DNA from: Hirudinaria manillensis
Lineage: Eukaryota; Annelida; Clitellata; Hirudinida; Hirudinidae
Length of the DNA stretch: 64,000 bases
Direction: 5' to 3'
NCBI GenBank assembly: GCA_034509925.1
Contig: CM067533.1
Span: 1-64,000, forward strand
The notes beneath the pieces were generated by a model. The model saw nothing but the letters and a program-made list of their open reading frames with translations, was not told the DNA's origin and searched no databases. Positions 1-40,100 of the stretch are shown in pieces; positions within the stretch are counted from its first letter, which is position 1; every line of letters starts with the position of its first letter. Position numbers and translations under genes: made by a program.

Positions 1-1212
1 TGAGTTTAATCGTATTAACGGTATTTTGCCTTGTATTTTGTCTGTTGAAGTATTCGTATTTTTGTCGCTTGATAATCCTAAGATATTTCTTAGTGGTTAT
101 CAGTGTTTTGTTCAAAACACACGTGCTTGCTTCTATTTTGCTTCGATACCATTTTATGCGTTGCAATTTAATGGTATTTCTTAGCGTAATTTTTTAATTG
201 CTTTTTTCACTTTTGTTCTTAAATTCTTTTTTATCGTGAAATACGCTTTAGAATTTTGTAGAACTTTTATATAATATATAATATATATTATATATTTCGG
301 TATAGCTTTGATACTTGTAATGCGAAGCATTTCCTGGTATTTTTTAGCATTTTAATATACCTCGCTCGTCATTCTCAAAAATCTTTAACGTTAAATACGT
401 TTTTAGATTTTTTTTGAAAAACGCACGTTATAAACTATTTTATTTTAATTTATTGTATTTTTGGTTTTTAAAAAATTTTTTTTGGGTTCCCAATAATTTT
501 TTTTACCAAATAAATAACCTTTTTCTTTGGTTTCTTCAAGGGCTGAGATTTCATCTCTTGTTGTTACACTAATTTATCGTTCATTGATGAATTCGTTGTA
601 AAACACTAAGTTAATTTAATTGCATCTTTGGTTTTAATTTTTGGGTTCCCAATAATTTTTTTACCAAATAAACAACTTATTTCTGTGGTTTTTCCAAGGG
701 CTGAGATTTCATCTCTTGTTGTTACACTAATTTATCGTTCATTGATGAATTCGTGGTAAAACTACTAAGTTAATTTGTTGTTTTGGGCGATGATTTATCA
801 TCCCTTATTAATCTAATAGTTTTTTTAAAAAAAACGTGCTTCGACGGGTAATTATTTATTAAGTGAATTTGCAATCGGTTTCGTTATTTTCTCCTTAGGT
901 TCTTTCTACGATAAACACGTTTTAAGAATTTTTTGAGAACATACGACTCTCGAATACTACTTTAATTCCAAGCTTGCTTAGCAATTCTTGGCGTTGTAGT
1001 TAAACATTCTGTCCATATCTGGCTCTTATTTTTATGGGTTCCCATTAACTTTAATGCCAGTTTATATCATCAATTGCCGATATATTGTCTCTTGATGCAT
1101 TGTTAATTTAGTTAGACTTATATTGTGTGTTTTTGACGACCACGATACATAATTTGCTAGATTGTCTACTAACAAAGAAAGTGGAAGTGCAGTTTTATTT
1201 ATATTTTCTATT
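1..1212. repeat. T-rich subtelomere-like DNA with degenerate duplications
   Basis: No gene is visible. The + strand is strongly T-rich. A block beginning with the motif TGGGTTCCCAATAA near 483 recurs near 642 (offset about 159 bp, roughly 90% identical by eye), and a more diverged GGGTTCCCATTAA lies near 1036. Short degenerate blocks resembling ACGTTTTAGAATTTTTTGA recur near 240, 400 and 915. Such imperfect local duplication next to a telomeric array is typical of subtelomeric or telomere-associated sequence. The orientation of the adjacent array places this DNA on the distal (chromosome-end) side of it. Confidence 0.6.
483..780. repeat. Imperfect tandem duplication, about 159 bp unit, two copies
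   Basis: Copy one runs from about 483 to 641 and copy two from about 642 to 780. Both contain the ordered landmarks TGGGTTCCCAATAA, TTACCAAATAAA, GGGCTGAGATTTCATCTC and TTGTTACACTAATTTATCG. They differ by scattered substitutions and short indels, so the duplication is not recent. Confidence 0.8.
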
Positions 1213-1969
1213 CTAACCCTAACCCTAACCCTAACCCTAACCCTAACCCTAACCCTAACCCTAACCCTAACCCTAACCCTAACCCTAACCCTAACCCTAA
1301 CCCTAACCCTAACCCTAACCCTAACCCTAACCCTAACCCTAACCCTAACCCTAACCCTAACCCTAACCCTAACCCTAACCCTAACCCTAACCCTAACCCT
1401 AACCCTAACCCTAACCCTAACCCTAACCCTAACCCTAACCCTAACCCTAACCCTAACCCTAACCCTAACCCTAACCCTAACCCTAACCCTAACCCTAACC
1501 CTAACCCTAACCCTAACCCTAACCCTAACCCTAACCCTAACCCTAACCCTAACCCTAACCCTAACCCTAACCCTAACCCTAACCCTAACCCTAACCCTAA
1601 CCCTAACCCTAACCCTAACCCTAACCCTAACCCTAACCCTAACCCTAACCCTAACCCTAACCCTAACCCTAACCCTAACCCTAACCCTAACCCTAACCCT
1701 AACCCTAACCCTAACCCTAACCCTAACCCTAACCCTAACCCTAACCCTAACCCTAACCCTAACCCTAACCCTAACCCTAACCCTAACCCAAACCATAACC
1801 CTAACCCTAACCCTAACCCTAACCCTAACCCTAACCCTAACCCTAACCCTAACCCTTCTGCGAAAGCGGAACGACATTTTTTTCTCCTATCTTAACCCTA
1901 ACCCTAACCCTAACCCTAACCCTAACCCTAACCCTAACCTAACCTAACCCTAACCCTAACCCTAACCCT
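1213..1969 (+). repeat. Telomeric (CCCTAA)n array, interrupted
   Basis: About 107 near-perfect CCCTAA units fill 1213-1856. A 35-bp unique spacer (1857-1891) follows, then about 13 more units to 1969, two of which are shortened to CCTAA. One degenerate patch (CCCAAACCATAACCC) lies near 1786-1800. C-rich strand 5' to 3' on + means the chromosome body should lie to the right and the end to the left, but 1.2 kb of other DNA lies to the left. The array is therefore interstitial or subtelomeric, or marks an assembly join. At under 0.8 kb it is short for a terminal telomere. Confidence 0.95.
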
Positions 1970-27359: not shown

Positions 27360-33356
<5,997 letters not shown>

Positions 33357-34196: not shown

Positions 34197-37100
34197 TTAT
34201 CTATTATGTGGACATGTTTTTCTTGTATGGCCTGAAAACAAACAGTAGTAGCAGTAATGCAAAATAACTATTATTAATAATAATTTAGCAAAATAATGGA
34301 CAATAACAATACTTTGAAATATTGCCTTGAAACTCACCTTCCTCCCCACAAATACCACACTTTCTTTTCTTTTTTTGCTCAGAATTCGTGCCATTATTGC
34401 TTCTATTGTACTGACTACTACCATGAAGATGAATCGAAGCTGAGCCTAAAGGTCATTCGAATGAAAATGGAAATATTGCATTCCAGTTCAAAAAGTCTTT
34501 GAAACTCACCAGCCTGGTTTCCTAAATCTACTTCCTGATCAGACCACTGGAAAAAGTTGCATCCTTGTCCTATAGGTTTTGGACAAGAATAAAACACTCT
34601 TCCTTTGTTTGGTCCTTCTTTAATCACAGTTTTCCTAACAAAAATGGAAAGCAACTCTATTTTTTGTCATTCAATGGTAAATTTATATAACTATTATCTG
34701 CATATATATTATTTGTTTATGTAATATTTAAACTAATAACCAAGCCAGGTCAAATGACCCATGCTGTACAAGCTAGCTATACAACATCGTAAAAAAGAAT
34801 AATTCAAACCCCGACTTTTCTAGTGTTAAAAAAACATTCGATAATGTCAGTAAGTGTAAATTATGCAAGACAAATTCTTTTGAAAAATTAAATAAAGATG
34901 ACAGTTTAATACTAAACTCTTTGGCTGGTAGTTTGCAATTGCAAGAGAGTCCTTGAGAACAACCGAATCCATTGGCTCGATTCGAGGAAGACGGTCGACT
35001 GAAAAGTTTAACTCGATGACGGCACGTTCGATTAATTTTAACCATTCGGTCGACGAAAATACCTGCTTAAAAACGCGGCATCGAGATTCGGGTCGGAATC
35101 GGACCAGAGGAAGAAACCGCATTTCGAATCCGGCGGATTCGGACAACCGTAAAACTGACGTCCTTTGTTCGGTCCTTCTTTCTTGACCGTAAATATTTTT
35201 GCATCTTTGCCGCAATCGCAAACGACGTTGTTCGTGACGTCGGTTCGCGACTGCTCGCGCGACGCGGGCCGAGAAACCGGCGTTCGGATGTCTGCAAAAA
35301 AACGTCGAGATCGTGTAGAGCGACTTTTCCAACTGGAGAAATTCAATTTCCAAACCGTCGGCAGAAGAAGGCATCCGATCGCCGCGTGCGGACGAGGATC
35401 CGCAGAACGCGGATCGAGGGGGAAGAGACGGAGGCGGAGGCATGGAGGGGAGACGGGCACCGTCCGCGATTACGTTGCTCGGCAAGCATCTCGGTCGACC
35501 AGAAGAGGCCTCTAGAATAAGTTTTACATCCAAATGTTTCGAGTAGGAATTTAATGGTTGTTATTATGCAGAATATCAAACCTATATATGAATTAGCCCC
35601 AAAATACCAACATTACAAATTTATAACGAACAATAAAAAAAATAAATTAACAACGAAATTTCGTACCATCGTTCGATCTTCCACCACGACCCCCGTCGGA
35701 ACCCGAAGGCCTCGGGAATCGCGATCCGAGGATTTCTTCTATGTCGAGGTCGCAACCTCCGACGCAGGCGATCCTCTCTTCGCTTCCGAAAGACAGGGCA
35801 TTCCTGCTGAATTTGAACTTGACTTTGTGCATGGGAAAGTCATAAGATTTGCACTGTCAAAAGACAATAAGCTATATTATTTTAATATTATTTTGTTTAT
35901 GTATTCAAACTAATAATTAAGAAAATATCCTTTCGTTCGTTAGGCGACGGAAATGCAAATTAAAAATATCTAATCCGAGCAACGACCGAACGATAAAATT
36001 CTATTAAATTTAAATTAAAAAATTTAAAACATTTTCCGAAGGAAAAAATGCTAAGAGAGATAATGAATGCACAGGACGAGTGGCACGAATCGGTCGTGGC
36101 GGATAAGAAAAGCCACGGGTCGCGTTCCCTCGTGAAATTTGCACACGGGCACGTAACGCTTTCGACAAGTCGTCTCGTAACGATATCGTGTAACAAAACA
36201 TAAAATAATAATTCATCAAATCAACGCGTTCGAAACTGCCGTTGCAATATCTTACTCGAGTGCATAGTTCTTCATCAACTTTTGCTTCAATAACCGATTG
36301 AGGAAACCACATAACTGTTTTGCATCCTGGGTAACCAACACATGTCAGAAAGAGCCTGAGGAAAGTAATGTGCATTTCTTTGTTTATTCTTAAGAAATAA
36401 GTACTCACGAAACACATAAGATTCATCAAATTTGATGAGGGACCAGATAAAAGAGTTTACCGTCGTCTTTAGATTTGACGGTCCTCGCATAAATAATGCA
36501 TTTTTTGAATTCCGAGAAAAGTCATAATTGAATTTTAAAAACACTAACCTTACATTTATTTGTGATTTCTGACATTAATAATTAATAAGATATTATATCA
36601 AGCGACAAGGGCAACACAATTACAATTTGTGGGAAAAAAGGGAAATAATATAATAAATATAACATAATTTACAGTTTCGCTGAAAAAATACTCAACAAAA
36701 TCATAAAAACGATTTTTAAAAAATTTATGTACGGATTTCCGTACGTGCCCGAACGTACTCCCCGATCTCCTTACCCACCCTTTTCCGTCTCGCTTGCTCT
36801 TCACGACCACGTCCTTTCCGCACGAGGGACACTTGCAGAGCGGCCGAAGATTATTGCCGCCGATTCCTAAAGAGTCGGTAATATTAAATATATTATTTAC
36901 CATATGAAATATTTATTATATAAATTATTTGATTGTATGAATTAAGCATCGAATGGTCATAATATTATATTTAATTATTAAATTGGATTAAATATAATAT
37001 TAATATTATTATAATATAATAATGGTCATAATGTTATATTTAATAATATCTAAAATAAATAATATATTAACAATATTAAGACCATTCAATGCTTAATTCA

Positions 37101-40100
37101 TAAAATCAAATAGAGGAGTTTGGCTCCTGCAAAAGTTGCATGAGCTATACAAGCGATAAATTAATGAATATCCCAGGGAAAGGAATTATCTGTAATTAAA
37201 CACTGAATAGCCCTATACCTAACCCTAACCCTATACCTGGCATTTGAGGGGGAGCCTGAGCTTGTCCAAAATAAGGAATCATTGCATCGTCTATTTTACT
37301 GGCCTATACAAATTAAAACAATTATATTATTTATTAATTGATATTAAATCAATTACATTTCAATAAATATATTAATTGATATTAAATCACACTTAATAAT
37401 TCAAAAGTTGCAATAATTACAAGACAAAACATAAACCTGTTCATAGGCAGCCAGAAATACTGCTTTATATTTCCTTATTTGTTCAGAGAGAACAACTAAA
37501 AATACATTCAAAATTAGGGGATAAATTAAAATTTATTAAAACAAATTATCATTAATAGTCATGAATTCTACATAAATCTATGTAAACAAATGATTCAAAA
37601 TCATGGACTATAAGAAACTTAAGAAAGGCAAATGTTTATAAATTCAATTTTGAACAAACCATCTTTATCTTTTTCCCCAAGACATATTCTGCAAGTGATC
37701 ATATATATTTTAGAGAGATAAATATCAAAATAATAGCGTACTAAGCACGTAAGACTCGTCACAAAAATATCGGATCTCAACCTCTTAAGGTCGGCCTCCA
37801 ACTCGGCTCTCAGATTTGGCTTTGACATCTCAAAACCCATGGCATCATAACCTGGTTAGGCAATTAAGAGAATGAAGAATATGTATATATATATATATAT
37901 ATATATTACTGGATATATAAATTTGATTATGTTAATTATGTGTAATGAAGAATAATAATAATTTAATTATGTTAATTACGTGCAGTTGAGTCGACATCTC
38001 CGAGAGAAATGGTAAAAAAATGTGTAATAAACTATTAATCGATATTATTTTTTTCTCGATTACAAACCGCACGCATCCTCTCTACGTACCTTCGACCAGT
38101 CCCATTCCTAGTTCGCCCGGAAGGAACTTGCCGTCTTCCCTCAGACCGACGTAGTGCCTCGACTTGATGGTCTCTATGTGTTCCGCATGAGTGGCGTCCG
38201 TTCCTGTAGGATAAGGTTCGCGAACGAAACGATGCCGGGTTCTTTCGAGAATAAACTTCGTTACCTATGCCGTGTTTTTCCATCAACGCGATGAGATCCG
38301 CCTCGGTCAACAGCGAGGGAGGAGAAGTTTCGCTTTGCATCATCTGCCAAAATAAATAAATTATCGTTCGATTAAAAACATTTTAAAATCATCGACTTCA
38401 TGCTTTGATCCATTAAAGCAAAGTAAACATACTGAAATGAGTAGCATTAACATGTCATTCATAAGACAACCCTAACCCATGTCTTATGAATGAGACGTTG
38501 TTATTATCCACGAACTCGTCATAAATTGCAAGCTAAAGCCTAGCCTAAACCTCTTTCGTGATTTACTTCGAGCCAACAGAAGGAGGATTAAGAACGAAAT
38601 TTTGCGAGCATTCGAAATATTCGGAAAGTACGGCAATTCGGTTTATGATAATAACAAAAAGCTCCAAAACCTCGATGCATTCGGGCACGAACCTCTGCCC
38701 GACGGCGAAGACGGGAACGTTCTGCAAAAGAAATAACGGGATGCAATGACGAGACGTCGCGGAATAAAAATAAACGTCATCTTCACTTTGTCCGTCCATT
38801 TGTCATAAGGATACACTTCCAAGTAGTTTTTGGCCAATATCATCAAACCCGACAAGGTGAACTGCAAAAGGAAAAAACTTCGTCACGATCTCGGTCGATT
38901 GTCATTAGAAACGGTAACGTGGCCCGTCGATTTCTCCAAAAGATCGTGGCGACGGACTCGACGACCTTTTCGTTTCTCAGATCGGCCTCGACCACCGTCT
39001 CGTGACCCCGGGCGTCCTGCGAGCAACAGGCCAAGAAGTGCCTCACGATGAACTCGTATATCGTTCTCTCGTTGCCCTTTGACATTCAAAATTCATTTAA
39101 TCACAACCAAAGACCAGAAAATTGAAATTAACAAATATTACTGAAATTAACAAATATTATTGAAAGGAATGTCTGAATAATGCTTTCATGTGTAATCAGA
39201 TATTATCAGTTATTGCACCAATTCTGAAACATTTTGTTCAATTCTAAAACATTTTATTATCTATTGCAATCATCATCCTGAAGCATCATCTAGTACATAA
39301 ATAATAATAATAATAATAATAATAATATAATGAAAAAAAAATATATAAAAGGACTTCATGAGAACAATGATCATCACCTGGAGATTATCTGTATACTTGA
39401 TGGGATGAATGGGTGGATGTGCCTGGTCGGATTTGGTGCCATTCCTAGGATTTGGTCCGCTCTCCAACAATCTCTGAGCAAAATCTATCAATGATTGCCT
39501 AAATTATTACCAAATATTTATCAGATAAATAGGTAATAAAATGATTCAATGTGCTTTATTCTTAAGGCTTCATTGTTGATCTAAAACTATGAGAATTAAG
39601 CAAATCATAAAATTACAGCAGAAAACATGTTTTTTGGCCAATTAAATGATATATAGATTCAGCCATTTCCCAAACTCGTGCTCTTTTTGCTTCTCACCTC
39701 CCCATCGTCGGTCTTGGGTCTGATGACCCACAAGTGCGACGAGGTCCAGACCCTTGGGGAAAGCGTTGGTCTCCGTACGGGGATACGAAATGTAGCCCTG
39801 AGTGTAAAGTTTCTCTGCAATCCTCATCGTCTCCTTGGCACTTATCTTGAGCTTTCGAGAGGCCAGTTTTTCGAGTTCCTTCGGATCAAAATATCGTCAA
39901 TAAAATTTGCCATAGTTTAACATTGCAAAAAGTATAAAATTATTTCAATTTGAGATTTTCCAATCGTTTTAGGATGCAATAATATCGGACGTGCGATGAC
40001 ATCAAATACGCATTAATATCGGATATGCGATGATATCAAATACGCATTAATATCGGATATGCGATGATATCAAATACGCATTAATATCTTAATATATAAT

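Follow-up and report, generated by a model that had tools for sequence, protein, structure and literature searches.

A degenerate telomere-like array overlapping a TOP3A 5' splice site in the leech Hirudinaria manillensis, most likely by coincidence

Short interstitial telomeric repeats (ITS) of mammals are explained as products of break repair in the accounts that PMC2246262 and PMC7215372 give of them. Target duplications are tabulated for 4.6% of the rodent and 16% of the primate loci (PMC2246262, Table 1), and the human list in PMC7215372, from which degenerate arrays were excluded, places 31% of the loci in introns and none in an exon. Judged by title and the start of the abstract, no literature joining interstitial telomeric repeats with splice sites was found. 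Here we analyze a 64,000-nt stretch of H. manillensis DNA (the window, taken at its full length), in which an initial annotation had noticed a telomeric motif at a 5' splice site of a minus-strand gene assigned to TOP3A.

The assignment to TOP3A was confirmed. Twenty-three exons chained by hand, and verified by script, gave a 753-aa open frame interrupted by 22 introns (59 to 774 nt), and the two exons proposed earlier on either side of the splice site (37303-37237 and 36866-36779) fit into this frame together with the 21 others. The best solved match of the product was human TOP3A (PDB 4cgy), with 1025 bits over residues 78-751, as against 401 bits for TOP3B; the homologue comparison covers these residues and the exons up to number 23 of the chain. 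Pfam detected PF01131, PF01751 and PF01396 (Topoisom_bac, Toprim and Zn_ribbon_Top1), and the product thus combines a Toprim domain, a type IA topoisomerase core and a C4 zinc ribbon with a higher score to TOP3A than to TOP3B. The part of the gene around the splice site is laid out as follows.

37237..37303, minus strand: TOP3A exon, number 21 in the chain of 23, ending in CCAG at the upstream donor D1
36867..37236, minus strand: intron of 370 nt with D1 as donor; acceptor CTTTAG/GAATCGG
36779..36866, minus strand: next TOP3A exon, where the C4 zinc ribbon starts (GIGGNNLRPLCKCPSCG...), placed by the chain, homology and Pfam

Genome searches covered 23 contigs (148,429,096 bases), among which C1 has 14,755,599 bases. 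Six type IA topoisomerase matches, retained from 10 candidates, fell at two loci, on C8 and C7. Because the matches other than TOP3A itself all lie on C7 (4 of the 6), the gene appears to be single copy at the sensitivity of this search. No second copy of the locus was seen among the 69 matches to 36701-37400 that a scoring of the best candidates gave; besides the self match, one of these fell at query 2-90 and the rest at query 289-523, a segment that corresponds to an AT-rich intron element and its surroundings, outside the array and the preceding exon. This palindromic element (window 36926-37112, in the same TOP3A intron) has 41-nt arms that are 93% complementary and several dozen partial matches in the genome among the best candidates, and it resembles a foldback or MITE family. 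Another TTAGGGTT is found in a TOP3A intron at window 38455-38493, inside the inverted repeat TCATTCATAAGACA / TGTCTTATGAATGA; the hairpin at 38430-38520 was considered as a repeat family and rejected, as the genome search returned only itself. In the same assembly, COX1, COX2 and then COX3 follow one another on C23, presumably in the order usual for annelids, and C23 COX1 reads through nine TGA codons, with AGR at serine and ATA at methionine positions, which we take to reflect the invertebrate code. A COX1 on C9 (L029, C9:3026446-3027786) scores 408.4 bits, equal to that on C23, which may reflect an assembly error or a nuclear copy of recent origin.

At the splice site, the minus strand from 37240 to 37211 reads CCAG, GTATAGGGTTAGGGTTAG and GTATAGGG, exactly as first reported, and continued to 37208 it reads CCAG GTATAGGGTTAGGGTTAG GTATAGGGCTA. 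These letters form the following feature.

37208..37237, minus strand: degenerate telomere-like array, GGTATA GGGTTA GGGTTA GGTATA GGGCTA, matching (GGGTTA)5 at 25 of 30 positions

The range originally given, 37211..37238, was right in its letters, but the array runs farther, to 37208. Its five hexamers stand in one phase from 37237, and the register is unbroken over 30 nt, across both of the segments that had been regarded as flanks. Among all 30-mers beyond window position 2000, the array is the best match to (GGGTTA)n, the runner-up (23/30) lying at 28489, and its five changes in five units sit at hexamer positions 3 and 4. It is therefore an interstitial run of TTAGGG-type hexamers, placed off the chromosome end and matching the organism's own telomere repeat, which is present near the end of the contig as a long CCCTAA tract (window 1213-1969).

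The segment distal to that terminal array, window 1-1212, is part of a unit present at 99-100% identity in at least 41 places (self included), in tandem on C18 with a spacing mostly of ~3.87 kb; further copies are on C14, and others lie less than ~55 kb from the ends of C3, C5, C7, C8, C9, C10 and C11. We class this unit as a subtelomeric satellite. Pfam searches of two ORFs of the unit (L063), including a 181-codon frame at L063:2868-3410, returned nothing, as did an Rfam search of the unit, and we take that frame to resemble the end of a Penelope-like reverse transcriptase.

The array as a whole exceeds chance. Beyond window position 2000, CCCTAACCC occurs 7 times against 0.12 expected from 100 first-order Markov shuffles (largest count, 2), the signal for AACCCTAA alone being weaker (6 against 1.8, with a largest shuffle count of 6). 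The 10-mer emphasized in the initial annotation, CCCTATACCT, has exact copies in the window only at 37211-37220 and 37229-37238, and allowing up to one mismatch gives 3 matches against 1.5 expected; because 20 of 100 shuffles reach 3, this 10-mer by itself is not rare in the window. The repeat-motif-repeat layout described earlier does exist, inasmuch as two copies of AGGTATAGGG are present, but apart from its first A both copies are parts of the array.

This arrangement leaves a probable account, in which an old degenerate array overlaps the TOP3A donor by coincidence, its two donor copies go back to in-register duplication, and any functional effect is small; we hold it with fair confidence. 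A short interstitial telomere-like array, probably old because it is degenerate, would overlap the 5' splice site by accident, and the two in-register GGTATAGGG copies would have arisen within the array by a three-hexamer slippage or unequal exchange. Since such a duplication spans three hexamers, it would both copy the donor and keep the reading frame. Splicing at D1 would yield the ordinary TOP3A linker, and the downstream D2 would be a similar but weaker donor, perhaps used at a low level, whose product would carry GIGLGL in the linker to little effect.

Arrays from elsewhere in the genome bear on the duplication step, which we infer from them and from the register. With up to one mismatch, GGTATAGGGTTAGGG was found in 140 places against 12 for a reversed control, and a 26-mer with up to three mismatches in 66 places against 0, counts that take in some places near contig ends. 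Arrays were delineated by wrap-around alignment in 450 nt around each match at 49 loci (L009-L060 minus L029-L031), which gave 49 arrays, 30 of them left once identical strings had been removed. The sample is biased, the loci having been drawn by patterns that contain such variants, and partly dependent, as it includes repeat families with common flanks (L027/L028/L054 and L038/L039); four arrays (L020 minus, L035, L048 minus and L050) are cut by the 450-nt slice. Seventeen of the 30 contained a direct repeat, exact over 10 nt or more, with non-canonical bases in it. The TOP3A array, counted at 9 nt as delineated, stands outside these 17, and L037 is the sole one among the nine other short arrays (up to 40 nt) with an internal repeat of at least 10 nt, such repeats being commoner in long arrays. 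In the other 29 arrays, 149 of 271 variant bases lie at hexamer positions 3 and 4, and of the 421 hexamers in register 10 are GGTATA. Two GGTATA arising independently among five units would be unlikely, so the pair is most simply derived by duplication inside the array. Parts of the TOP3A array recur elsewhere: 27 letters (37233..37207), with D2 and the terminal GGGCTAT among them, as an exact copy in L020 on C4, 21 letters (37237..37217) in L015 on C9, and 20 letters in L018 on C12, all with flanks unrelated to those in TOP3A. A further telomere-like array, in L038 (~1485-1525; C4:12851754), lies a few bases past a candidate donor, judged by eye, of a WSC-like exon encoded on the other strand.

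The initial annotation had instead likened the layout to target duplication around an inserted telomere repeat, in which a staggered break in the pre-existing donor CCAGGTATAGGGCTA took up TTAGGGTT and the second donor came from a 10-bp duplication of the target. Telomerase or fill-in repair may be where the array ultimately came from. The array-less state would then have been CCAGGTATAGGGCTATTC, and a clean junction would read CCAG followed directly by GTATAGGGCTATTC, with no further hexamers. The accounts in PMC2246262 and PMC7215372 lend this some plausibility, since a minority of mammalian ITS insertions show target duplications and the break sites often hold one to eight in-register bases; the repeat-motif-repeat arrangement is also there to be explained. 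It would, however, require that the old site, GGTATAGGGCTA, was already a 9-of-12 match to the telomere unit, as are only 213 of 123,976 12-mers of the window body (0.17%, both strands), and that an 8-nt insert restored the hexamer phase on both sides. The supposed flanks share the hexamer period of the insert, and GGTATA is found in other arrays that lack such flanks. Exactly abutting duplications of at least 3 nt were absent from the TOP3A array, a test that depends on the array end chosen, and from all 30 arrays, four of them cut as noted. With the register running through the repeats and no abutting duplication of this size, target-site duplication was dropped as the leading reading, and we regard such an insertion as unlikely.

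Turning to the donors themselves, the two in-frame sites 18 nt apart were found where the earlier description had put them, but two further GT donors that it had overlooked lie between them.

37231..37239, minus strand: donor D1, CAG/GTATAG, likely the main 5' splice site (U1 pairing, -7.2 kcal/mol; leave-one-out score, 6.42; ungapped linker)
37213..37221, minus strand: donor D2, TAG/GTATAG, 18 nt downstream, in-frame GIGLGL (U1 pairing, -5.6 kcal/mol; score, 4.87)
37218..37232, minus strand: two more GT donors, AGG/GTTAGG, at +7 and +13 from D1, with a frame shift to an early stop

D1 and D2 differ only at position -3, and computation makes D1 the likely stronger of the two. The score was built (leave-one-out) on the 22 remaining assigned TOP3A donors, and since those donors pair with U1 as weakly as -1.8, D2 is competent on paper, as is D1. 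The +7 and +13 sites have an in-gene score of 7.88 and a U1 pairing of -5.5; the in-gene score is a coarse one, as this small matrix places these frame-shifting sites above both D1 and D2. A protein made through these sites would stop at GIGNRRQ or GIGLGNRRQ, and one made with the intron retained would stop after GIGLGLGIGLFSV. The D1 product has a linker that aligns to human TOP3A without a gap. Translation from D2 bears out the predicted in-frame insert of six residues (GIGLGL), which falls in the linker preceding the zinc ribbon, and D2 may be a minor site that adds them. That this insert is in frame is not separate evidence for a role, because three hexamers are six codons.

The same translation raises the question of whether the motif was a coding repeat, belonging to an exon that was once longer and whose donor has since shifted upstream. 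In the exon frame GGGTTA, GGTATA and GGGCTA do spell Gly-Leu and Gly-Ile dipeptides, and a similar stretch, GIGVGIGLGLGVLVL, lies within a 189-codon open frame at C6:1015860 (L042). The frame in TOP3A nevertheless stops after GIGLGLGIGLFSV, human TOP3A has no matching extra residues, and changes at hexamer positions 3 and 4 are the commonest kind in the other arrays too (the 149 of 271 given above), which makes a coding origin very improbable. In L042 itself, the telomere-like TAGGAATAGGGTTAGGGTTAGG (L042:1499-1520; C6:1015860-1015881) reads GIGVGIGLGLG, part of a stretch resembling a membrane helix; some telomere-like matches may consist of Gly-Leu/Gly-Ile codons.

A regulatory role was also weighed, in which the array would act as a regulated tandem donor, UAGGGU being bound by hnRNP A/B-type and the GGG runs by hnRNP F/H-type proteins, so as to set the ratio of linker isoforms. 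Two UAGGGU lie between D1 and D2. In PMC1379639, UAGGGA and UAGGGU are named as high-affinity hnRNP A1 sites, and oligonucleotide tails with hnRNP A1/A2 sites inhibit a 5' splice site placed just downstream of them; PMC2423196 links poly-G elements with the choice of 5' splice site. If the leech hnRNP A/B proteins acted alike, D2 would be the donor more likely to be suppressed, and D1 would remain. UAGGGU and GGG motifs come, however, with any telomere-derived sequence, and we consider regulation of this kind distinctly doubtful, somewhat more so than an insertion. Its strongest form, a retained switch in which hnRNP A/B-type proteins with affinity for telomeric DNA or RNA as well as for UAGGGU sit between the TOP3A donors, we find barely credible; were it true, the linker isoform ratio of TOP3A in leeches would respond to telomere state.

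An RNA quadruplex at the splice site, suggested on account of the G-runs, is weakly supported. The array is unusually G-rich for the window: its G4Hunter value is 1.30, against 1.71 for (GGGTTA)n, and only 21 of 20,658 sampled 27-mers of the window reach an absolute value of 1.30. A canonical quadruplex, which needs four GGG runs joined by short loops, is, on the other hand, beyond what it offers, namely three GGG runs plus GG pairs, and ViennaRNA with quadruplexes allowed gave the same fold as without them at 34, 75 and 180 nt. We therefore set aside a canonical quadruplex, which is absent from these minimum-energy folds; a two-layer quadruplex might form.

How much coincidence the preferred account, an old array lying by accident across the donor, asks for can be gauged roughly. 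The first 100 places listed in a search for GGNNTAGGGTTAGGNNTAGGG were all on C1, reaching 14,747,994, and among these listed matches 16 array clusters were counted by eye in the C1 interior, outside the terminal arrays (~1.1 per Mb). If arrays average 100 nt, probably an overestimate for this class, then with a gene number of 18,106 (taken from the figure stated in PMC10087013) and an assumed eight introns per gene, ~16 donors genome-wide are expected to lie inside such arrays by chance, or fewer if the arrays are shorter. With that expectation, the TOP3A case needs no special cause. TOP3A has a role in recombination that is linked to telomeres, and this link is not needed to explain an array at its donor. 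Many such arrays exist in this genome, some of which are expected at splice sites by chance, and we conclude that chance most likely accounts for the overlap with the TOP3A donor, which would have little or no function. At most, the locus would illustrate how an in-frame copy of a splice donor can come from duplication in a worn telomere-like array, the hexamer length preserving the reading frame.

Compared with the systems described, the TOP3A array resembles the mammalian short ITS treated in PMC2246262 and PMC7215372 in being a short TTAGGG-type array at a non-terminal site. It differs from them in reaching a splice donor and in its strong degeneracy (five changes in five units). The tandem alternative 5' splice sites covered in PMC2423196 are like D1 and D2 in being two similar, close GT donors, the downstream one of which lengthens the exon. 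Extensions of 3-6 nt are those that its abstract marks as unusually often alternatively spliced, whereas the candidate TOP3A pair is 18 nt apart and in frame. Human TOP3A (PDB 4cgy) shares with the leech protein the Toprim domain, the type IA core, the C4 zinc ribbon and, if D1 is used, a linker of equal length, to which use of D2 would add six residues.
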